A stretch of DNA of 64,000 bases from an uncultured Poribacteria bacterium (GTDB lineage Bacteria; Poribacteria; WGA-4E; WGA-3G). The stretch spans positions 2,272,217 to 2,336,216 of the forward strand of contig OX639992.1 in the NCBI GenBank assembly GCA_951828515.1, in the 5' to 3' direction. Within the stretch, counting starts at the first letter, position 1. Each line of letters begins with the position of its first letter. Below are positions 11,091 to 50,922 of this stretch, piece after piece. The notes under the pieces were generated by a model that ran no database searches, was not told the origin of the DNA, and saw only the letters and a program-made list of their open reading frames with translations. Position numbers and translations under genes: made by a program.

Positions 11091-12629
11091 TTAACTTATC
11101 TCATATCGTAGAAAGGATACGTAAGCCACCATGAACAAAACGATATTCCACGCCAACAAGATCAGAATATCCACAGAAGCACGGAAGAAACTTTCCGAGA
11201 GGGAAAGCCGGTGATGTCGGAAAACCGGCAGATCCGTCAAATCCGCAGCACCCTGATCATCGGAAAACCATGCTAGCGAAGAAAACGCCTTCTTATCCTT
11301 CAAATATTCAGCAATTTCACGCTTATAGGCTCTGGAACTTTCAATAAAATCGTTATAACTCTCCCGATCGGTCCCCGCTATTGCACCAACAGCGTAGTGA
11401 TATACGTCTGCGAAGGAGATACGCGAGATCATGTCTGCGAATTTCGCATTCCGCTCTCGCGCTTCTGCAGGTTGTTTGAGAATTTCTTCCGCCCTATCCG
11501 TATAGGCAATCCGAAGTGGTTCCTGATAACTTAAAAATTCCTGGAGAACAGAAACGTCGGCGTACTTGATATTTCCAATGTTATAACTCTCTATAAGAAA
11601 CCATTGCGCAGAGGTGGAGTAAGTCCCAGAAGACCCACCTCTTCTACCTTTTTCATCGCGGTGCCAAGAAACCGTCTTTGTTGGACTATCATACCCCCTC
11701 TTTTTAAGATAGTCGTCGCGTTCTTTTTTGAAATCATCCCAGAGTTGAATCGTTTGTTGAAAAACCTCATTTTCCGATTGCGGCTTATGAGGAGAGAATT
11801 TCGTTACCGCAAAGGTCGCTACGTTCGCATGAACACTTGTCAGAACCACCCAGATAAACATCGACAGGATTAGCGTTGTCGAAGCCTCCTTCGTCCAGAC
11901 AGACAGAAGGAGTCCTAAAAGATACCATGTTGATACATACAGCAACGAGATCCCGAATATCAGGAGGATGTGCGCAATATCGTTTCCATCAAAGGCAGTA
12001 ACTGGAGAAGAAACAGCGATGAGGAGTGCCACAATTAAACTCACCAAAACAATCGGGAACAACGACAGCATTCCACCGAGATATTTTCCCAAAACGACAG
12101 CATCCCTCGGTATCGAATTGGACAACACAAGTTTCAGCGTGCCGTCTTCTCTCTCTCCCGAAATGGTATTGTAAGCAAACAGAATCGCTAAGGCACTGAG
12201 CACAATTTTGAAGACGAAAACCACATCAACGGAGAGGAACATCGCAAGGAAGGGGTTGTCTGCCCCGATCTTCTGAGTTGTTTCACCCCAACCGGGGGAA
12301 CGGCTATCCCGTGTCCAAATCGGCTTGTCAGGCTCAACAACGACAGTATTCACACCAGAGTTTTCCATCCCGATGTTAAAAATGCCGAGCGGGTTCGGCC
12401 TTCTATGCACTCTTTGGCTAATATCCGTGTAGAGTTTCCAATTTTGTGGTCCCGCTTGGGATTCTCTGACAGCAGTATTATACCCCACCAAATGTTTTTC
12501 GTAATCATCCACCTGAACGAAAACAGCGACAGCTGTTGAAAGCAGACACACGACAAACCCAATCATAAATCGGGATGTCAACACATTTGAGACGAATTCG
12601 CGTTGGATAACCAACCAAAGGGTCCGCAT
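11091..12629 (-). CDS. ABC-2 type transporter permease
   Basis: 512 aa, same layout as its downstream partner: one N-terminal helix, a large loop, helices from about 155, SGEREDGTLKLVLSNSIPRDAVVLGKYLG as the ABC-2 signature segment, a second large hydrophilic loop at about 290-450, and a final helix. The two proteins are clearly related and probably form a heterodimer exporting a lipid-linked or protein substrate. The substrate is unknown. First gene of the pair. Confidence 0.8.
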   Translation of the reverse strand: MRTLWLVIQREFVSNVLTSRFMIGFVVCLLSTAVAVFVQVDDYEKHLVGYNTAVRESQAGPQNWKLYTDISQRVHRRPNPLGIFNIGMENSGVNTVVVEPDKPIWTRDSRSPGWGETTQKIGADNPFLAMFLSVDVVFVFKIVLSALAILFAYNTISGEREDGTLKLVLSNSIPRDAVVLGKYLGGMLSLFPIVLVSLIVALLIAVSSPVTAFDGNDIAHILLIFGISLLYVSTWYLLGLLLSVWTKEASTTLILSMFIWVVLTSVHANVATFAVTKFSPHKPQSENEVFQQTIQLWDDFKKERDDYLKKRGYDSPTKTVSWHRDEKGRRGGSSGTYSTSAQWFLIESYNIGNIKYADVSVLQEFLSYQEPLRIAYTDRAEEILKQPAEARERNAKFADMISRISFADVYHYAVGAIAGTDRESYNDFIESSRAYKREIAEYLKDKKAFSSLAWFSDDQGAADLTDLPVFRHHRLSLSESFFRASVDILILLAWNIVLFMVAYVSFLRYEIS

Positions 12630-13466: not shown

Positions 13467-14306
13467 TCAATTCTTCCATACCGAACGCTTGATACTGCCC
13501 CAAGTGGTGGCAATCTTATCTTTGGGTGAAACCACCAAAGCCCCTCTCATTACCGCTTTGATCTCAGATTGCGTCAGGGCGCGTTTCCATAAGCCTACTT
13601 CGTCAATTGAACCGTCCTTGAAGGTATATTGTGGATGGTTCTTGGCACATCCGATGCGCAGGTCCGAATCATTCGTACCGATGAACTCAAAGTCCACCAC
13701 CGCATCATCAGAAATAATTTCGCCATCCATATACATTCTTTTGGTCCTACCATCATAAGTCACAGCAATGTGATGCCACTTCTTATTCACCATCCGTCCC
13801 CAGCTCCAGAAACTCCACGTTATCTCTCTACGCCCATCCGAGATCCCGCCCAAGTGCATTACGACATTTGGATCATCAAAATTCCTTAGAAATCCGGGAT
13901 CTTCGGGATCAGGGAATAGTCCTAAGCCGTAGGACCTCTTCTCCTCACCCAAGATATGACTCCCGTTATCAAACAATTGTCCTGAAACCGTGTCCCAATC
14001 TTCATGATACACCCACGCCATCATTGTTATCTCGCCTTCAATTTTTAGCAGATCGTCCGCGGGGACATGGACGCAAGTATCGTCTTTCGCTGCAGCGGCA
14101 ATATGCATAGCATTCCCATATTTGCCCTTGACAAAATCTATATTTCCAACGACTTCGGCATCAAGGCCGTTGTCAGAATCATCAAGAATCTTCTTACCGT
14201 TCACATTGTCAAAGGTAAAAAACATAACCAGATCTTTATCCAGCCCAGCAGAAACTTGACTCACTGTGAATAGCACAAAAATTAAACAAAATAGTACCCG
14301 TTTCAT
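13467..14306 (-). CDS. Secreted LamG domain protein with ATTWG tail
   Basis: 279 aa from ATG 14306, preceded by GGGGGAG with 5-nt spacing (an ATG at 14336 lacks a site). Signal peptide about 1-20 (MKRVLFCLIFVLFTVSQVSA). LamG domain about 25-250: LVMFFTFDNVNG, DSDNGLDAEVVG, GKYGNAMHI, WHHIAVTYDG, RMYMDGEI, GSIDEVGLWKRAL. It ends SPKDKIATTWGSIKRSVWKN, the shared tail of the window's secreted domain proteins. A TGCAACC-N17-CGACAT site lies about 110 nt upstream, linking it to the proposed ECF regulon. Confidence 0.85.
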   Translation of the reverse strand: MKRVLFCLIFVLFTVSQVSAGLDKDLVMFFTFDNVNGKKILDDSDNGLDAEVVGNIDFVKGKYGNAMHIAAAAKDDTCVHVPADDLLKIEGEITMMAWVYHEDWDTVSGQLFDNGSHILGEEKRSYGLGLFPDPEDPGFLRNFDDPNVVMHLGGISDGRREITWSFWSWGRMVNKKWHHIAVTYDGRTKRMYMDGEIISDDAVVDFEFIGTNDSDLRIGCAKNHPQYTFKDGSIDEVGLWKRALTQSEIKAVMRGALVVSPKDKIATTWGSIKRSVWKN

Positions 14307-14418
14307 TTTTACTCCCCCGATGAATGTGGTTGCCATTTTTTATCTTCTCCTAATTTAACTTGAAAACCGATGGAATCTCAAGGGACAATTTGAAAAATAT
14401 GCATTGCCTTGTGACGTT

Positions 14419-14448
14419 ATGTCGTATTTTAAGGGAGGAAAGGTTGCA
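14419..14448 (-). promoter_or_regulatory. Proposed ECF-sigma promoter upstream of LamG gene
   Basis: Minus strand: TGCAACC (14442-14448), 17-nt spacer, CGACAT (14419-14424). The whole block GTGACGTTATGTCGTATTTT is nearly repeated at 25565-25583, upstream of the sigma-fusion gene. Confidence 0.65.
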
Positions 14449-19880: not shown

Positions 19881-21206
19881 TTAGCGTCGTCCTTTTTCGC
19901 GTCTATCTTCCATGTTTCTCCTCTTTAGGTGTATTTCCCCCAAAGAGGTCCGAAACTTCAGTAACGGTCCACCACCGTTGAGAGTACCCTTCAACTTATC
20001 TTCTGTCAAAAGACCCTGAACTTGAATGGGAATGTCACTTAAAATGGATCCATTCGTTTCGGCATCTATGTTTACAGCAGTGTTGGAACTGAGCACGACC
20101 TCTATCTTTCCAGGACCCGATGTCCGTAGAGTCCATGGATGCATCGGTTGTGTTGGAATTTCAGCATGGATGTTCCCAATGCCAGACTCTGCCTCTACAC
20201 TACTTTGACACTCTCTTAGTACAACCTTGCCAGGTCCACCTGTCTTGGCAATGACCTTTCCTGTTATCGAACCTAACTCAATATTTCCAATACCAGATTC
20301 TACATCTACATCACTCCGACACTCTCTTAGCACAACCTTGCCAGGTCCACCCGTCTTGGCGATTACCTTTCCTGTTATCGAACCTAACTCAATATTTCCA
20401 ATACCAGATTCTACATTTATATCACTCTGACTCTCTTTTAGCACAACCTTGCCAGGTCCACCCGTCTTGGCGATTACTTTTCCTGTTATCGAACCTAACT
20501 CGATATTCCCAATGCCAGACTCTACATTTATACCATTCTGACATTCTTTTAGCACGATCTTACCAGGTCCACCCGTCTTGGCAATCGCTTTTCCTCTTAC
20601 CAAATCCAACTCGATATTCCCAATGCCAGATTCTAAATCCACATCACTCTGACACCCTTTTAAGGTGATACTACCAGGACCCCCTGTCTTTCCCCAGACG
20701 GCACCTTGGATCTCACCAAGATATAGGTTGCCAATGGAAGTCTCCGCTCTCACAGTACCATCAAGGTTGTCTACGTGAATAGCTCCGGTAGATGTAGTTT
20801 TCAGCACAACGTTAAATTGATATGGCACTGTCGCCTGAAAATGAAGCCGCAATGGGTGCCCGTTTTTCATCCAGTATTGGCGATAGCGTTTGAACTTTCC
20901 TCCAATACGGATATCGGAATTGTTCTGTTCAAACGTTACTTCAAAATCGGTAAGTGCTTTTTGCGCGATACTATCCAATTTTCCTTCAACTTCCCTCGTG
21001 ACGACAATCTCGACCTCATTCTTGTCTGCAGTTTGCACGTTAATCGTGCCAATTTCTGAATCAATCGTTAATTTGCCACCCGGTTTAACATGAAAATTTC
21101 CCATGATGTCCTGCGGGGTATCACGGGCAAAAGCCGCAGTTACTCCGAAAACCAGGTTAATTATCAAAGCGGTAATCCCCACTAAAAGACTGTTCTGATT
21201 TTTCAT
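19881..21206 (-). CDS. Secreted DUF4097-like repeat protein
   Basis: 441 aa. Signal peptide about 1-27. N-terminal segment (GGKLTIDSEIGTINVQTADKNEVEIVVTREV) is typical of DUF4097 putative adhesins. The middle carries five 37-aa units (IGNIELGSITGKVIAKTGGPGKVVL...) predicted to stack as a beta-helix, then a degenerate sixth. DUF4097 proteins often sit beside ECF sigma or anti-sigma genes and may sense the envelope. GGAGG lies 8 nt upstream of the start. An ECF-type promoter site lies at 21299-21328. Confidence 0.75.
   Translation of the reverse strand: MKNQNSLLVGITALIINLVFGVTAAFARDTPQDIMGNFHVKPGGKLTIDSEIGTINVQTADKNEVEIVVTREVEGKLDSIAQKALTDFEVTFEQNNSDIRIGGKFKRYRQYWMKNGHPLRLHFQATVPYQFNVVLKTTSTGAIHVDNLDGTVRAETSIGNLYLGEIQGAVWGKTGGPGSITLKGCQSDVDLESGIGNIELDLVRGKAIAKTGGPGKIVLKECQNGINVESGIGNIELGSITGKVIAKTGGPGKVVLKESQSDINVESGIGNIELGSITGKVIAKTGGPGKVVLRECRSDVDVESGIGNIELGSITGKVIAKTGGPGKVVLRECQSSVEAESGIGNIHAEIPTQPMHPWTLRTSGPGKIEVVLSSNTAVNIDAETNGSILSDIPIQVQGLLTEDKLKGTLNGGGPLLKFRTSLGEIHLKRRNMEDRREKGRR
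20176..20730 (-). repeat. Five tandem 111-bp coding repeats
   Basis: Exact 111-nt spacing of boundaries at 20176, 20287, 20398, 20509 and 20620; the central units are almost identical at DNA level, showing recent expansion by unequal exchange. Each encodes one 37-aa turn set of the DUF4097-like protein. Confidence 0.9.
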
Positions 21207-21298: not shown

Positions 21299-21328
21299 AA
21301 GTCGCGTTTTAAGGAAGGAAAGGTTGCA
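21299..21328 (-). promoter_or_regulatory. Proposed ECF-sigma promoter upstream of DUF4097-like gene
   Basis: Minus strand: TGCAACC (21322-21328), 17-nt spacer, CGACTT (21299-21304). Spacer composition (TTTCCTTCCTTAAAACG) matches the sites at 14419 and 25572. Confidence 0.65.
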
Positions 21329-21366: not shown

Positions 21367-22236
21367 TTATTGGCCCGCTGAATCGGTGGATTTGATTTCG
21401 TATTGCGTTAGTTCAAGGCTCTTCTCCACTTTTGAATCAGCGGATTTGCGGATAAACTTTACAATCCCAACATTAGGAGCTAACCAGAGCGTTGTTAATT
21501 CTATACCAGAGGTATCTGAGAAAGTTGGCTTTGTCGCGTCCTCTTTTTCCGTTGCCTTTGCATACCAATATTCTATTTTCAAACAGTCTTCAAAAATCCC
21601 CGCGGGGGTCTTTACAGTTTCTTTGGCTGCCACCTTTCCTTTTTCGACCAAAGCAATAGGGATGGACTTCTGATCTCCGCCCGGAATCTGCAAATTGGGA
21701 ATGGGACTTTGGATTTCAAGTTTGAGAGTTATGGATCCGCTGATTTGCGTTGCTGTCCACTTTTTATCAAAAGCCACACGGGTTGGGAGAAAATAGAAAT
21801 CGTCTTTCGCTTCGACCTCAATCTCATAACTGATATCAACACTGGCATCACCAGTTGTCGAGATGCCTTGCTGTTCCTTGATATCCGCATCCATCTCTTT
21901 ACGGAGCCTTGCCTCAAATGCTTTTTCAACTTCATCACCGACAAAGAACGCTATTCCGTCTTTACGGATTTGGTAAAAATTGGGATGAACGTAATGCTCG
22001 TAATCCACCCAATCCTCCAAAGCAGGTTCATAACTGAAGGCGTGATACGTCTCATCCGCAATTGTTTTCACCTCTACAGCACGCCGTGTTAATTTGTCTC
22101 CATTTTGATTTTCGTAAACCCAAAAACTTCCGGGTGTATGTGGGAAATAGTCATTTGATTGTTCGTTGGCTATTATCGTTGCACTGAAGCAAAAAGTGAG
22201 CGATAGACTCAAAATGACACGAAATATTTTCAACAT
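21367..22236 (-). CDS. Secreted protein sharing the W/Y-rich domain of the sigma fusion
   Basis: 289 aa. Signal peptide about 1-23. The mature part begins YFPHTPGSFWVYENQNGDK and later has TPAGIFEDCLKIEYW and TTLWLAPNVGIVKFIRK...LELTQYEI. The same pattern (FP..G..W.Y, AG.F..CLK, LWFA.GVG.VK) occurs in both large multidomain neighbours, so this is a stand-alone secreted version of that domain. Function unknown. GGAGG lies 9 nt before the ATG. Its own ECF-type promoter lies at 22349-22378. Confidence 0.65.
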   Translation of the reverse strand: MLKIFRVILSLSLTFCFSATIIANEQSNDYFPHTPGSFWVYENQNGDKLTRRAVEVKTIADETYHAFSYEPALEDWVDYEHYVHPNFYQIRKDGIAFFVGDEVEKAFEARLRKEMDADIKEQQGISTTGDASVDISYEIEVEAKDDFYFLPTRVAFDKKWTATQISGSITLKLEIQSPIPNLQIPGGDQKSIPIALVEKGKVAAKETVKTPAGIFEDCLKIEYWYAKATEKEDATKPTFSDTSGIELTTLWLAPNVGIVKFIRKSADSKVEKSLELTQYEIKSTDSAGQ

Positions 22237-22512: not shown

Positions 22513-25503
22513 TCACTGATCATCGCCCAAAATACCAGCCAAAATGGCGCGCTGTGCGTCCGTGCTATCTGCCCTCTTTGTGATGGTAACGTCAATAGTA
22601 TCCGCCTCCAACGGCGGCTTCTTAGACGTGTCACCTCCTAAGGTGACAGGTCGGGTAACTTCTTCGCCCTCTCTTTCAAGGGTCAACTCCACTACATCAC
22701 CAGATTTCCAATCCCTGGCAACCTTTCTGATGTCTTCAAACGATTTCACCGGCGTGCCGTTGATGGCTATCAGTTGGTCGTCGTTTTGATACTGCGTTGA
22801 ATTGTCGATGAACAGACCTCCACCCGGGGGTCCCCCGATTCCACCAATACCGAGCATTCCATGCACGATATAACCAATACGAGGGAGTCTTTCGCCAAAT
22901 TCTATCTCAGCATTCACACCCGCGTCTTTAAAGTATTCCGCTAAGGGCAATTGTTCCGTTCCTGTCACATATTTGCGGAAGAACGGTTTAAAATCCGCAC
23001 CCGTCATTCGACTCACAATTCTGATGACATCGTTCATTGTATAAGGGACACCGGTGAGACCAAACTTCCGATACATCTGTTTCATCACATCATCTAAACT
23101 GCGCTGATTTTCCGTGAGTGAACGAATCTGCAAGTCCAAAGCGGCAGCAATCAGACTTCCACCGTCGTAGACGAGCTCGCGGTTGGCTGATTTGTCTTCT
23201 CCCGCCTCGTGAATAGAGAGCTGTCCCTGTCGAGAGAGATACGCCTCCCACGTCCGTTCAAGATTTCTGAGAAAATCGGTTTCAGAGACGAGACCGAGAC
23301 GGACCGAGACGACTTCCGAATAGTACTGCGTAAAACCAGCAGAAAACCAGTATTCCTGTTCCTTAAAACTGATGGCACCTGTTCCATACCGGATATCAAT
23401 ATAACTTCCATTCCAGAGATAGCAAACAAGGCGTGCTACCACAGGTAACCAAAAACCCCTGTTGGCTTCATCTAAGGTCTCACCTATCAGCATACTGATA
23501 CTACGTCGGGCCACACCACCGCTCCTGTATTCTTTTTCGCCATAAGGGTTCGCGACACATAAGAGTTGATCTTGTGGAGTGCCACCGAAAATCCGTGAAT
23601 ACATACCGAGCAGTGCCGCAACAGTTCGCTCTATTTCATCCATAGCCCCTTTAAAACGTCCACCGAGCGCAAGCACAATCTTTGCTGTTCCGGTTTCTAC
23701 CAGACGTTCAGAATGCTCGCCGAGCACGAGATACGCATACATCAGGTCGTTCTGATCTTTGCAAACGAAACGATGCCGATTCGGTTCAATCCGTTCCCAA
23801 GGCGTTGAGACCGACCAATTATCAGGCACATCCACACAGAGTTCAACATCGTCTACTTCACCGACAATAAACAGCGCATATCCGGGCCAGAAAACACAGT
23901 CGTCTTGGGCATACGGGGCTTCATCTCGACCCCAATGCCATTCCCGCTCATCATGGTTTAGCAATACTTTGTAACGCAGCGTCACAGGTAATTCATCGCG
24001 TTTATCAACCGCCCACTGCGTTTTGTCAATCTCCTCGATGACCAGTGACTTCCCATTCACATCGGTAACAGTCAAGTCCTGTAGATAATGACCATACCCA
24101 TCGTCCAGCCATTCAGTTCCAAAACGGCTCATGGATAACAGCAACGGTTTTCGCTTCCCATTTGCCTCACCGGTCGCTTTCGGCGTTAGCACACATTCGA
24201 CAGTCGCTAGACGCGGATTATCAGCATCAATCTTAACCTCATACCTTGCCGATGCAAGTTCCATCGGGTTCTCAAGATTTTCCAACCGACGGAAATTCCT
24301 GATGACGCGCCACTCCTCAATAACGGCTTCGTCGCGATACGTGTTATGCCATTTATATGTCCACTGCGTGCCTATCTGTGCGGGGAGATATGCCTTCTCC
24401 TGAAGTGGAATTTCATACTTAATCAATTCGGCTTCGGTGACAACACCATTCGAGTGCTCATAGCGCATCTTCACGAGTCCAACGCCTTTCGCGAACCACA
24501 GATAACGCGTTCCGTTTACAAGAGCGTCTCGCAACTCAGCATCGGCATTCTCAACGATCTCAACGTCAGCGTCCGTGAAAACAGTTTTATGTTTCAGGCA
24601 CACCGAGAAAGTGCCTGCGGATACACTCACTGTTTCACACCCCTCCAAGGTTGCCGTTGCCTGTGATTTCCAAGCACCCTCCTGCTCCCAAGAACTCCCG
24701 ACCACCAAAGGAAATCTAAAGATGTCAATCCCACCGTGGTTAAGATAGTGTAGCAACATGTACATCGGCGACGGATCCCCATCGCTACGTCCTCTTGTAT
24801 AGAATCCAGACGATGTGAAAACCTTATCCGTCCGGTTGAAATTGAAACCGCCTTCTGCTAAATGTTTACCGGTTTCCGTTGCAGCAGTCGTTTGAAAGTC
24901 AATGCGGCGCGGTTCACTTTTTAAGATATTTGTGTCTAAGGTTTCGCGAAGCATTGATTCCTCCGTTTCCAATCGTTTTCGAGCGCGATACAACCGACTT
25001 TTTACCGTATTCAGTGATACATCCAAAAGCACACTCACCTCTTCACAGGTTAAACCTTTGTAATAGTGCAATACCATCACAGAACGTTCATTGACAGGCA
25101 GTTTTTGGAGGAGGCGTTCCACGATTTCACGCAGTCCATCTGTTGATGCTTGTGCCCGTTCTTCGTCAAGATACCGCGCATAGGACACCCTCTCTAATTC
25201 TGCATTCGGCATCGCATCCAGTGACTGCATCGTCATCGGTTTCCGCCGCAACCATTCAATACATTGACGCTTCGCTATTACGTGTAACCAGCCTGAAAAA
25301 CGATTCGGGTCTCTCAAACTTGGAAGCGACTTATAAGCCTGAATGAAGGTATCTTGTGTAATCTCCTGTGCGGCATGGAAATCACCGATCTCACGCCATG
25401 CGAGCGAATGAATCCACTTCCGGTGCTTTTCGACCAGTGTAGTGAAAGCATTTTCATCACCCGACAAGACGCGTTGAATCAGATCAACATCTTCGTTTTT
25501 CAT
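22513..25503 (-). CDS. ECF sigma factor fused to degenerate M61-like peptidase and PDZ domain
   Basis: 996 aa from ATG 25503, which has GGGAGG 6 nt upstream and matches the N-terminus of the other sigma fusion (MKNEDVDLIQ versus MKNDDIQLIQ). Residues 1-190 are an ECF sigma: region 2 (FTTLVEKHRKWIHSLAW, EITQDTFIQAY) and region 4 (VLHYYKGLTCEEVSVLLDV, TVKSRLYRARKRL). The rest is collinear with the esterase/M61/PDZ paralogue downstream, but HEVVH is replaced by ARLVC (near 690) and WFSEGFTEYY by WFSAGFTQYY, removing every zinc ligand. No membrane segment separates the sigma part from the rest, so the pseudo-peptidase is probably a cytoplasmic regulatory domain. It is likely autoregulated through the site at 25572. 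Confidence 0.8.
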   Translation of the reverse strand: MKNEDVDLIQRVLSGDENAFTTLVEKHRKWIHSLAWREIGDFHAAQEITQDTFIQAYKSLPSLRDPNRFSGWLHVIAKRQCIEWLRRKPMTMQSLDAMPNAELERVSYARYLDEERAQASTDGLREIVERLLQKLPVNERSVMVLHYYKGLTCEEVSVLLDVSLNTVKSRLYRARKRLETEESMLRETLDTNILKSEPRRIDFQTTAATETGKHLAEGGFNFNRTDKVFTSSGFYTRGRSDGDPSPMYMLLHYLNHGGIDIFRFPLVVGSSWEQEGAWKSQATATLEGCETVSVSAGTFSVCLKHKTVFTDADVEIVENADAELRDALVNGTRYLWFAKGVGLVKMRYEHSNGVVTEAELIKYEIPLQEKAYLPAQIGTQWTYKWHNTYRDEAVIEEWRVIRNFRRLENLENPMELASARYEVKIDADNPRLATVECVLTPKATGEANGKRKPLLLSMSRFGTEWLDDGYGHYLQDLTVTDVNGKSLVIEEIDKTQWAVDKRDELPVTLRYKVLLNHDEREWHWGRDEAPYAQDDCVFWPGYALFIVGEVDDVELCVDVPDNWSVSTPWERIEPNRHRFVCKDQNDLMYAYLVLGEHSERLVETGTAKIVLALGGRFKGAMDEIERTVAALLGMYSRIFGGTPQDQLLCVANPYGEKEYRSGGVARRSISMLIGETLDEANRGFWLPVVARLVCYLWNGSYIDIRYGTGAISFKEQEYWFSAGFTQYYSEVVSVRLGLVSETDFLRNLERTWEAYLSRQGQLSIHEAGEDKSANRELVYDGGSLIAAALDLQIRSLTENQRSLDDVMKQMYRKFGLTGVPYTMNDVIRIVSRMTGADFKPFFRKYVTGTEQLPLAEYFKDAGVNAEIEFGERLPRIGYIVHGMLGIGGIGGPPGGGLFIDNSTQYQNDDQLIAINGTPVKSFEDIRKVARDWKSGDVVELTLEREGEEVTRPVTLGGDTSKKPPLEADTIDVTITKRADSTDAQRAILAGILGDDQ

Positions 25504-25571: not shown

Positions 25572-25601
25572 ATGTCGTATTTTAACGGGGGTAAGGTTGC
25601 A
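25572..25601 (-). promoter_or_regulatory. Proposed autoregulatory ECF promoter of the sigma-fusion gene
   Basis: Minus strand: TGCAACC (25595-25601), 17-nt spacer, CGACAT (25572-25577). The predicted transcript starts about 60 nt before ATG 25503. Confidence 0.65.
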
Positions 25602-47838: not shown

Positions 47839-47886
47839 CAGATATAAATGCCTAATGATGAAACCCTCTCTTCTTGGAGGCAACTC

Positions 47887-50800
47887 ATGAAAAACGACGA
47901 TATTCAACTCATCCAACGCGCCCTGGCAGGCGACGATGATGCCTTCTCCGCTCTTGTGAGAAAATACCAAAAGCAGGTTCACGCACTCGCGTGGCGGAAG
48001 ATCGGGGACTTCCACATCGCAGAGGAGATTACGCAGGACACGTTCCTGAATGCATACAAGAGACTCGCAACACTGAAGAAACCGCAGCGGTTTGCAAGTT
48101 GGCTTTATGTGATCGCCGCAAACCGATGCAGTTCGTGGCTCCGCAAAAAACGGTTGTGGACGCAGTCACTGGAGCAATTGGAGGAAACGGACAACGAACA
48201 GGTACAAAAAGCAACGTATTCTGGGTATGTCATTGAGGAAAACGAGCGCACAGCCGTAGATGCCCAACGTGATGTGGTCAAAAAATTGCTCGCGAAACTC
48301 CAAGAGAGTGAACGCACGGTTATCACGCTCCACTATTTCGGTGAGATGTCGTGTACAGAGATTGGCGCGTTTTTAGGCGTATCCGCAAACACGATCAAGA
48401 GTCGGCTTCGTCGCGCACAGCAGCGTTTAAAGAAGGAGGAACCGATGATAAGAGAGGCTTTAGAGAACTTCAAAATCACACCGAACCTCACGGAGAATAT
48501 CATGCTGGAAATCGCTCGCATTAAACCTGTTGCACCGTCCAGCGGTAAACCTCTCATACCATGGGCAATTGCAACTTCCACAATAGCAGTGGTCTTGCTA
48601 ATGTTAGGCATTGGAAACCATCAATACTTAGGACGTTTCCAAAAGCCATACAATTTCGATGCGACTTCAGAGATGACGATTGAGCTCATTGAGGCACCGA
48701 TTGTGCTGAATCTCGCGTCCAAAACGGATAAGCGAACACAACTTGGAAATCCAAACGCGCCCAATAAGAGCAGGACACCCGAACGGAAACCTAATGATAC
48801 CCCAGCTTTATATGCCGAAGCACAAACGGATGCAACCCTCGAAGATTATGCAAAATGGGAACTACCAAAAGAGGCAAAGGCGCGTCTGGGAAAGGGCGGA
48901 ATCAATGTGCTTCAATTCTCACCTGACGGCACTCAGATCGCAGTGGGCAGTAATATTGGGGTGTGGCTTTATGATGTGGAGACAGGCAAAGAAATATCAC
49001 TGTTTGCAGGAATGTGCCAAGCACTTGCATTTTCACCCGATGGACGTTACCTTGCCAACGGCGGCGGAAGGTACACAACGGACGAAATTCAAGTGTGGGA
49101 TACAACTACTGGGCACAAAGTGCCACTCGTTGATGCCCCTACTTCTGCCGCAGCATTGCAGTTTTCCTCAGATAGCAAAAGGCTAATTAGTTTGAGTAGT
49201 TTACATTTACAGAAGACAATTAGCAGATTAAATATTGAAACTGGAAAGGTAGATGTGACGACGCTCAAAGCAGGAAACAGGGTTATTTCTGGCGTTTACG
49301 CGTTCACATTTGACAAGATCGCAATTGGAGGTTGGGGCGGAAAGATTCAGTTGTGGGACATAATGACCGGCAAAAAGTTATTCACCCTCGGAGGGCATGC
49401 AGATTTACCTACCCAACCATTTCCTTCACGCCTGCCTTCTTCACCTCTACAGTATCAGAAACAAGTCTTAGTGTTGGCATTTTCACCTGATGGTACAATG
49501 CTCGCAAGTGGAGGTAAGGATAATACAGTCCGATTATGGAATAGTGCCAGTGATAGCGAACCAACTGTGCTTCAAAAACATACAGGTTGGACAAACGTGT
49601 TAGCATTCTCTCCTGACGGAAAGGTACTTGCCAGTGGGAGTACCGATAAGACGGTCCTGTTGTGGGATACCACCACTGCCGAACTGCTCGCTACCCTTTC
49701 AGGTCATATCAATGGTATTACTGCTTTCGCATTTTCACCCGATGGCTCAATGCTCGCAAGTGGAAGTACGGACGGCACGATCCGGTTCTGGAATATCAAG
49801 ACGGGAGATGTCCTCGCTCCTCGTATCACCGGACATACGGAGTGGGTAAAAGGAGTGACTTTCTCCAAAGATAGTTCCACACTTGTCAGTGTGGAGTTCA
49901 ATGGAAGCATCAATTTTTGGGATGTGAAGACATCACAAAGAACCGATCGCCAAAGTGCTGGACACCGAGATTGGTTAGCGACTTTAGCGTTTTCACCGGA
50001 TAGAACACAGCTCGCAAGCGTTGGCGCGGAAAGTAACATGGTCGTAGGATTCGGTCGCGTGATAAAGCCTGATCCTTTAATTCGTTTGATTGATGTAAGC
50101 ACCGGACGCGAGATGGCAACATTGAAGGATAAGCCCGGGGTCTCAAATCTGGTATTTTCGCCTGATGGCAAAACAGTAGCCTTCAGCAATCACGGTGAAA
50201 TTCGTTTGTGGAGTACAGAGGCAGGGACTGTTCTTAATACATCGCCCTCGGATCCGAAGAACAATTTGCCTGAGAGGTTGGAGCCTGAAATCAGTGCCTT
50301 GGTATTCTCACCCGATGGCAAGAAATTAGTCAGTGGAACCATGGACGGAAATATTCAGATGTGGGACACTGAGACTGGAATTGGCTTAGTTTCTCTCACA
50401 GAGCAAGATCCAGACAATGTAAAGTATGGGGTGAAAGAAGCCGCAGATGCGGATCCTGACGCAACCGTAGTGACAACCACGTCTGCTGACGCAACCGTGG
50501 TAAGAACCGCAACGTATCGGGAACCTATCACAGTGTTGGCATTCTCTCTAAATGGCAAACGACTTGCCGCGGGAAGTCAGAAGCAGATTCGGTTGTGGAA
50601 CATGGGAACCGGAAATTGGGGAAAAGGCATCACTTCAATTGGTGGGCATAAAAACGGCAGGGAAGTTTTTCACGGTTCTGAGGCACTGGTGTTTTCGCCA
50701 GATAATACGACGCTTATTAATGGCGATGGAAACGGCAGACTCCAGCTGTGGGACATAGCAACAGGAGATGAACTGACCACTTTCGATGGACACACAGGAC

Positions 50801-50922
50801 AAGTAGAAACGTTACAATTTTCGCCTGACGGCAACACACTCGTCAGTGCAGCACAAGACGGCACAATTCTCTTATGGGACTGGAGCGAAATCCTCAACGG
50901 TTTGCCTGTGATAAATGAATAA
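47887..50922 (+). CDS. Membrane-tethered ECF sigma factor with 14-blade WD40 domain
   Basis: 1011 aa from ATG 47887 (TTGGAGG 6 nt upstream; the frame is open from 47848). Residues 1-90: sigma region 2 (FSALVRKYQKQVHALAW, EITQDTFLNAYKRL, RFASWLYVIAANR). About 130-185: region 4 (TLHYFGEMSCTEIGAFLGVSANTIKSRLRRAQQRL). Residues 223-243: one hydrophobic helix (LIPWAIATSTIAVVLLMLGIG). From about 335 to the end are fourteen WD40-type units (VLAFSPDGxxLASGSxDxTxxLWD), enough for two seven-blade propellers, placed outside the inner membrane if the helix spans it. A covalently linked sensor-sigma protein; no anti-sigma gene is adjacent. Confidence 0.85.
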   Translation: MKNDDIQLIQRALAGDDDAFSALVRKYQKQVHALAWRKIGDFHIAEEITQDTFLNAYKRLATLKKPQRFASWLYVIAANRCSSWLRKKRLWTQSLEQLEETDNEQVQKATYSGYVIEENERTAVDAQRDVVKKLLAKLQESERTVITLHYFGEMSCTEIGAFLGVSANTIKSRLRRAQQRLKKEEPMIREALENFKITPNLTENIMLEIARIKPVAPSSGKPLIPWAIATSTIAVVLLMLGIGNHQYLGRFQKPYNFDATSEMTIELIEAPIVLNLASKTDKRTQLGNPNAPNKSRTPERKPNDTPALYAEAQTDATLEDYAKWELPKEAKARLGKGGINVLQFSPDGTQIAVGSNIGVWLYDVETGKEISLFAGMCQALAFSPDGRYLANGGGRYTTDEIQVWDTTTGHKVPLVDAPTSAAALQFSSDSKRLISLSSLHLQKTISRLNIETGKVDVTTLKAGNRVISGVYAFTFDKIAIGGWGGKIQLWDIMTGKKLFTLGGHADLPTQPFPSRLPSSPLQYQKQVLVLAFSPDGTMLASGGKDNTVRLWNSASDSEPTVLQKHTGWTNVLAFSPDGKVLASGSTDKTVLLWDTTTAELLATLSGHINGITAFAFSPDGSMLASGSTDGTIRFWNIKTGDVLAPRITGHTEWVKGVTFSKDSSTLVSVEFNGSINFWDVKTSQRTDRQSAGHRDWLATLAFSPDRTQLASVGAESNMVVGFGRVIKPDPLIRLIDVSTGREMATLKDKPGVSNLVFSPDGKTVAFSNHGEIRLWSTEAGTVLNTSPSDPKNNLPERLEPEISALVFSPDGKKLVSGTMDGNIQMWDTETGIGLVSLTEQDPDNVKYGVKEAADADPDATVVTTTSADATVVRTATYREPITVLAFSLNGKRLAAGSQKQIRLWNMGTGNWGKGITSIGGHKNGREVFHGSEALVFSPDNTTLINGDGNGRLQLWDIATGDELTTFDGHTGQVETLQFSPDGNTLVSAAQDGTILLWDWSEILNGLPVINE

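Follow-up and report, generated by a model that had tools for sequence, protein, structure and literature searches.

In a 64,000-nucleotide stretch of DNA from an uncultured Poribacteria bacterium (analysed as a whole and called the window here), one gene encodes an ECF sigma factor followed by a DUF3108-like region, an M61 peptidase module devoid of its HExxH motif and a putative PDZ domain. On balance, we favour the view that this protein, P0001, is a soluble, autoregulated sigma switch in which the attached, catalytically dead DUF3108-like/M61/PDZ module is regulatory. The fusion, the clade-wide loss of HExxH, the constraint on the remainder and the copies of the promoter are read directly from the DNA; we infer, as the best explanation of the dead module, that it senses or binds something for the sigma factor.

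The gene is a single unbroken reading frame of 996 residues (22513–25503, minus strand; table 1) with a soluble product. The initial annotation, which joined an ECF sigma factor to a peptidase module here, had the frame, strand and coordinates right. Four matches of P0001 pass the Pfam gathering cut-offs: sigma regions 2 and 4, M61_N and M61, the last at residues 715–762 (1.4e-06). The two sigma regions, together with PDB relatives SigW, RpoE and SigH, place the N-terminal domain among the ECF factors, and descent of the peptidase part from the M61 superfamily is evident from both peptidase matches, a profile match to PDB 4fgm (7.2e-22) and the structural comparison described below. A PDZ domain had also been called; a match is present at residues 906–954, but it scores below the cut-off. 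P0001 has no signal peptide and, as first noted, no membrane helix, its highest 19-residue mean hydropathy being 1.08 versus 2.1 in a helix-bearing fusion (L113). The transmembrane helix that follows the sigma domain in factors of the ECF52/ECF243 kind is therefore missing from P0001 and found only in a separate fusion (L113/L114), and Pfam detects none of the SnoaL, TPR or WD40 domains that mark ECF41, ECF42 and ECF57 factors.

Table 1. Features of the sigma fusion locus, with window coordinates.
Feature	Coordinates	Strand	Basis or remark
P0001, ECF sigma factor–DUF3108-like–pseudo-M61 peptidase–PDZ fusion, 996 aa	22513..25503	(-)	~30 orthologues
ECF sigma domain of P0001, regions 2 + 4, residues 1–185	24949..25503	(-)	Pfam Sigma70_r2 2.3e-15, Sigma70_r4_2 5.1e-16
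DUF3108-like region of P0001, residues 199–360	24424..24909	(-)	weak Pfam PF21347, below cut-off
Peptidase_M61_N of P0001, residues 464–588	23740..24114	(-)	Pfam 3.3e-09
Pseudo-M61 catalytic region of P0001, residues ~601–870	22894..23703	(-)	alignment, dN/dS 0.16, Foldseek to 4fgm/8j9c/7xyo
Lost HExxH site, RLVCY, residues 691–695	23419..23433	(-)	multiple alignments
Lost third zinc ligand, E to A at residue 722 (WFSAGF)	23338..23340	(-)	multiple alignments
PDZ domain of P0001 (candidate), residues 906–954	22642..22788	(-)	Pfam PDZ_2 E 0.00049, below cut-off
Predicted ECF promoter of sigma gene, TGCAACCTTACCCCCGTTAAAATACGAC	25574..25601	(-)	conserved before nearly all orthologues
Secreted DUF3108-like protein, directly downstream of sigma gene	21367..22236	(-)	ORF, Pfam, neighbour families
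Predicted ECF promoter, operon holding live M61 peptidase	21301..21328	(-)	motif search
Secreted repeat protein, DUF4097-like by eye	19881..21206	(-)	ORF; no Pfam match
Unfused M61 peptidase with HEVVH...E intact; no other live M61 in this genome	16161..19826	(-)	60% identical to P0001 over 820 aa
Predicted ECF promoter, LamG/ABC-2 permease block	14421..14448	(-)	motif search
LamG (concanavalin-like) secreted protein	13467..14336	(-)	Pfam Laminin_G_3 2.3e-19
ABC-2 permease family gene, family F1, conserved near most orthologues	11091..12629	(-)	ORF clustering

The unfused paralogue keeps HEVVH and WFSEGFTEYY, as the initial annotation claimed. Its pairing of HEVVH with ARLVC in P0001 was right about the replacement and one residue out in register: multiple alignment sets VARLVCYLW of P0001 opposite the live VGHEVVHIW, so that the true counterpart is RLVCY, with H to R, the catalytic E to L and H to Y. 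With alanine at position 722 in place of the third Glu, P0001 lacks the hallmarks of an active M61 glycyl aminopeptidase. The claim that all three metal ligands are gone holds for P0001 and most of its relatives but not for two subclades (L079/L080/L137 and L086/L095/L096/L098/L100), which retain the third Glu; HExxH, absent from every dead-clade member, is thus the part that all have lost. The flanks are as well conserved as first supposed: GG662–663, W685, W697, QEYW716–719, GF723–724, Y727, Y779 and GG781–782 are invariant around the lost ligands, and F720 is nearly so; QEYW, GF, Y779 and the glycine pairs do not vary between dead and live sequences. The residues that took over at the zinc site, on the other hand, differ from one subclade to the next, RLVCY being the version of the group that includes P0001, and none is conserved. 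To judge from these alignments, any ligand therefore probably sits elsewhere than in the former metal pocket. We consider it very unlikely that enzymatic activity persists via relocated residues or another metal site. Such activity would account for the invariance of Tyr779, a catalytic-type residue, and of the substrate-side GG motif, as well as for the third Glu in two subclades, but HExxH is missing in every member and no new conserved residue has appeared in its place.

The dead module is nonetheless under purifying selection about as strong as that on its live paralogues, as judged from substitution rates. Over 21 close pairs, median dN/dS along the fusion was 0.088 (sigma), 0.145, 0.176, 0.164 (dead catalytic region) and 0.161 (PDZ region), compared with 0.18–0.22 for the live unfused paralogues; the dead catalytic region, at 0.164, compares with 0.182 in live paralogues. 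An AlphaFold2 model (alignment of 40 sequences) gave a mean pLDDT of 79 and a pTM of 0.60, the latter too modest for the arrangement of sigma domain and extension to be read from it. The best PDB matches of the model in Foldseek were the M61 structures 4fgm, 8j9c and 7xyo (E 3.5e-29 to 5.6e-22), with 4fgm scoring 3.5e-29 and a TM-score by target of 0.71. The earlier suggestion of a pseudo-enzyme that has kept its fold is therefore supported by both the Foldseek matches and a dN/dS of 0.16. These values also disfavour the idea that the peptidase part is the decaying passenger of an accidental gene fusion. Active-site substitutions do differ among subclades, as they would once catalytic constraint was gone, but medians of 0.14–0.18 across the module lie near those of live paralogues and the reading frame is intact in approximately 30 genomes of two genera, which leaves a passenger as the least credible of the alternatives considered here.

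A search of 85 genomes of Candidatus Poribacteria (sponge symbionts) yielded approximately 30 complete sigma fusions that have no membrane helix; they come from two genera, and all lack HExxH. The dead motif recurs in 33 genomes, as 30 fused sequences and three fragments, and is present in the single-contig assemblies G081 and G083; a frameshift or assembly error, which the initial annotation had named as a possible undoing of its reading, is thereby excluded. The three apparently unfused dead copies (L083, L099 and L109) were treated as fragments: two start at a contig end (L099 and L109), and in the genome of the third the sigma half lies at the end of another contig. A tblastn search against plasmids returned weak partial matches only. 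In an M61 tree built without the motif columns, the 33 dead sequences form a single clade (SH-aLRT 99), so that the motif needs to have changed only once, and their sister group consists of twelve unfused M61 copies with an intact HExxH and no signal peptide. The window's genome has exactly two M61 genes, one dead and one live, both inside the window. The live copy has an extra N-terminal part (a Big_5 match and, by eye, an esterase-like stretch) and no signal peptide as read here.

Fusion to a sigma factor does not in itself go along with ligand loss. The initial annotation had proposed this comparison and held that an intact HExxH in a sigma-fused homologue would tell against its reading; L113 and L114, from two genomes, are such homologues, with HEIFH and SEGFTEYY intact and a membrane helix between sigma domain and peptidase. 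In the sigma-domain tree, the L113 sigma falls in one clade (support 98) and the dead-fusion sigma in a different one (99), which identifies L113/L114 as an independent fusion and rules out one ancestral sigma–helix–M61 fusion as the source of all other forms. The loss of HExxH is restricted to the fusion without a membrane helix: the membrane-anchored fusion stayed live, as did unfused M61 copies of every kind (cytosolic, membrane-anchored and lipoprotein-like), though with one event of each kind, soluble and membrane-anchored, the cause of the loss is not statistically separable. Live membrane-anchored copies were observed at L105:10510–13155, L102:11982–14603 and L112:8115–10775, of which at least L105 and L102 have an N-terminus resembling the post-sigma linker and membrane helix of other fusions, much as loss of a sigma domain would leave behind. 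The L102 genome, G082, has both a dead fusion and a live M61.

An element of ECF-type promoter layout, GCAACCTT-N15-CGAC, is conserved 5′ of the sigma fusion gene, and in the form TTTATGCAACCTT-N15-CGAC it is found upstream of nearly all orthologues. Its two parts, an AAC-type −35 and a CG(A/T)C-type −10, are those of an autoregulated ECF promoter, which this sigma factor presumably recognizes. A looser pattern, TGCAACCTTN{12,18}CGAC, has four sites in the 5.85-Mb genome, three of them inside the window, where 0.03 were expected from shuffled windows; it also gave two reversed-control matches in this genome. The stricter TGCAACCTTN{7,11}AAAANNCGAC recovered the same four sites with no reversed match, and across the 85 Poribacteria genomes it matched 55 times, again with none reversed. 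This strict motif is present in 31 of the 33 genomes with the fusion and in one of the 52 without (Fisher p approx. 1e-19, which is not an independent-sample probability because the genomes are related), and 50 of its 52 unique sites lie 13–191 bp before an ORF. A search relaxed to three mismatches gave no clear excess, with four matches against 1.64 expected.

Since the motif was derived from sites before the sigma gene, the telling evidence is in the other sites. The four in this genome precede the sigma gene itself, the gene at 19881–21206 (followed by the live M61), the LamG gene at 13467–14336 (followed by an ABC-2 permease) and, from a site at G000:C1:2546610–2546637, an ABC-2 permease elsewhere (L215). 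In relatives, strict-motif sites stand before live M61s, ABC-2 permeases, an ABC ATPase, LamG proteins and a sigma–DUF3108-like protein. The DUF3108-like module is also joined alone to sigma in other genomes: L194:7407–8651 and L195:361–1608 encode short soluble proteins of this kind (415–418 aa, no M61 part) whose sigma domain groups with the dead-fusion clade and whose promoter is of the same type, which suggests that switching in this paralogue may not require the pseudopeptidase.

Gene order is in line with these sites, with the sigma fusion followed by live M61 copies and/or secreted proteins, and ABC-2 permeases further along in most loci long enough to show them (one member of permease family F1 scores 1.7e-30 with PF12679). 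The fusion gene runs into the beginning of a live M61 gene in all 11 tandem loci examined (overlap TGATG or similar), which suggests coupled translation. This arrangement would suit a dead module that acts as a partner or scaffold, assembling with the live unfused M61 of the same operon into a mixed complex and coupling sigma availability to the enzyme in the manner of enzyme–pseudoenzyme pairs, and it is consistent with such a partnership that the live copies form the sister clade and likewise lack signal peptides. However, in twelve of the fusion genomes, including the single-contig G081, the dead copy is the only detectable M61, so the function kept there needs no live partner, and in the window's genome the live copy lies approximately 2.7 kb downstream behind its own predicted promoter. 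An obligate partnership is weakened by the twelve genomes, and we consider the mixed complex in general unlikely.

The reading that we prefer, a sigma switch with a sensing or binding module, could work as follows. The sigma domain itself would recognize the GCAACCTT-N15-CGAC promoter, and the dead cleft and/or the PDZ domain would bind a peptide or protein in the cytosol. Binding would change the grip of the extension on sigma regions 2 and 4 and thereby switch the sigma factor on or off, as in ECF41-type C-terminal extensions. The predicted output is a set of genes for envelope transport and protein handling, which encode secreted proteins, ABC-2 transporters and, in genomes that have them, live M61s. 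A simpler arrangement would be a passive anti-sigma plug in the cytosol that binds no ligand and is cleared away by a housekeeping protease (Clp or Lon) or by the live M61. There are precedents in the accessible part of a review of non-canonical ECF factors, in which fused anti-sigma extensions are released by proteolysis in IutY and ECF243, and proposed to be so in ECF52 (PMC8999054), and no separate anti-sigma gene is recognizable among the annotated neighbour families of the fusion. But an 800-aa, three-part, enzyme-derived module constrained throughout is more than a plug requires, and there is no membrane helix for regulated intramembrane proteolysis; we think the plug improbable, though we rank it above the mixed complex.

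The window's genome is rich in other sigma fusions. It contains approximately 40 close sigma-domain paralogues (L031–L067), in most of which the sigma domain leads into a membrane helix and then a large C-terminal part (WD40, leucine-rich repeats, redoxin or others), and one such protein, with a sigma domain, membrane helix and WD40 propeller, is encoded in the window at 47848–50919(+). A promoter common to all of these paralogues was considered and rejected, as only L061, L054 and L066 have a GCAAC(C)TT-like −35, and there the −10 reads CGTC. A single 1366-aa frame at L068:467–4564(+) (G000:C1 ~2919966–2924063) combines sigma-70 regions 2 and 4 with a full FtsZ (Tubulin, FtsZ_C) and DNA polymerase III alpha domains (PHP, DNA_pol3_alpha, finger), in a genome that also has an FtsZ frame of normal length (426 aa). 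Sigma is joined to a truncated FtsZ GTPase domain at L069:968–2257(-), and to a complete three-domain DNA polymerase III beta clamp at L059:799–2526(-), alongside two more beta clamps of normal length in the same genome.

More tentatively, Poribacteria may build one-protein switches by joining an ECF sigma factor to a spare protein of the same kind as those in the pathway under its control. The dead M61 would then bind a substrate of the live M61 or of the ABC-2 system without cutting it, and report it straight to RNA polymerase. We regard this as a possibility to be ranked ahead of the plug, and well below the switch reading itself; if true, the sigma fusions to FtsZ, the beta clamp and redoxin in the same genome would be further cases. 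Although the host bacteria are represented solely by metagenome-assembled genomes, the system comes with built-in controls, namely live unfused sisters, an independent live fusion, genomes with the dead copy only, and a very specific predicted promoter with few targets, and these make the role of the pseudopeptidase for the transcription factor directly testable with purified parts.

Attached regulatory domains are known among ECF factors; no dead metallopeptidase in such a position turned up in the literature searched, and neither did accounts of ECF sigma factors in Poribacteria, of M61 peptidases with a PDZ domain, or of TAF2 as catalytically inactive. The accessible part of the review describes SnoaL, TPR, WD40, cysteine-rich and membrane extensions and has no mention of a peptidase-derived one; like the factors described there, P0001 carries, behind sigma regions 2 and 4, an attached domain that is presumed to stand in for the anti-sigma factor, and it differs in that its extension, of approximately 800 aa, is a dead M61 with DUF3108-like and PDZ parts (PMC8999054). 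With the M61 glycyl aminopeptidases (4fgm, 8j9c/8j9d and 7xyo), it shares M61_N, the catalytic-domain fold and the C-terminal PDZ, but it lacks HExxH and the third Glu, carries a sigma factor and has no signal peptide or membrane helix. TAF2 of eukaryotic TFIID is not known to be catalytic. It offers a parallel in its M1-type, aminopeptidase-like fold within a transcription initiation factor (PMC4309443). TAF2 is, however, eukaryotic and part of a large complex with no sigma factor, and no evolutionary link is shown. CspC of Clostridioides difficile belongs to a different protease family from M61. It is similar in being a dead soluble protease thought to detect a signal (PMC6636752). CspC acts in spore germination and is not a transcription factor, unlike P0001. 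The principle of a disabled enzyme as a sensor is already known from BlaR1 and MecR1, in which a disabled enzyme homologue is the sensor and induces the genes of that enzyme; BlaR1 is a membrane protein whose live metalloprotease removes a repressor. By analogy, the logic may be the same here, with a disabled relative of an enzyme sensing a ligand and inducing genes that deal with it, but in P0001 the dead enzyme is joined directly to the sigma factor.
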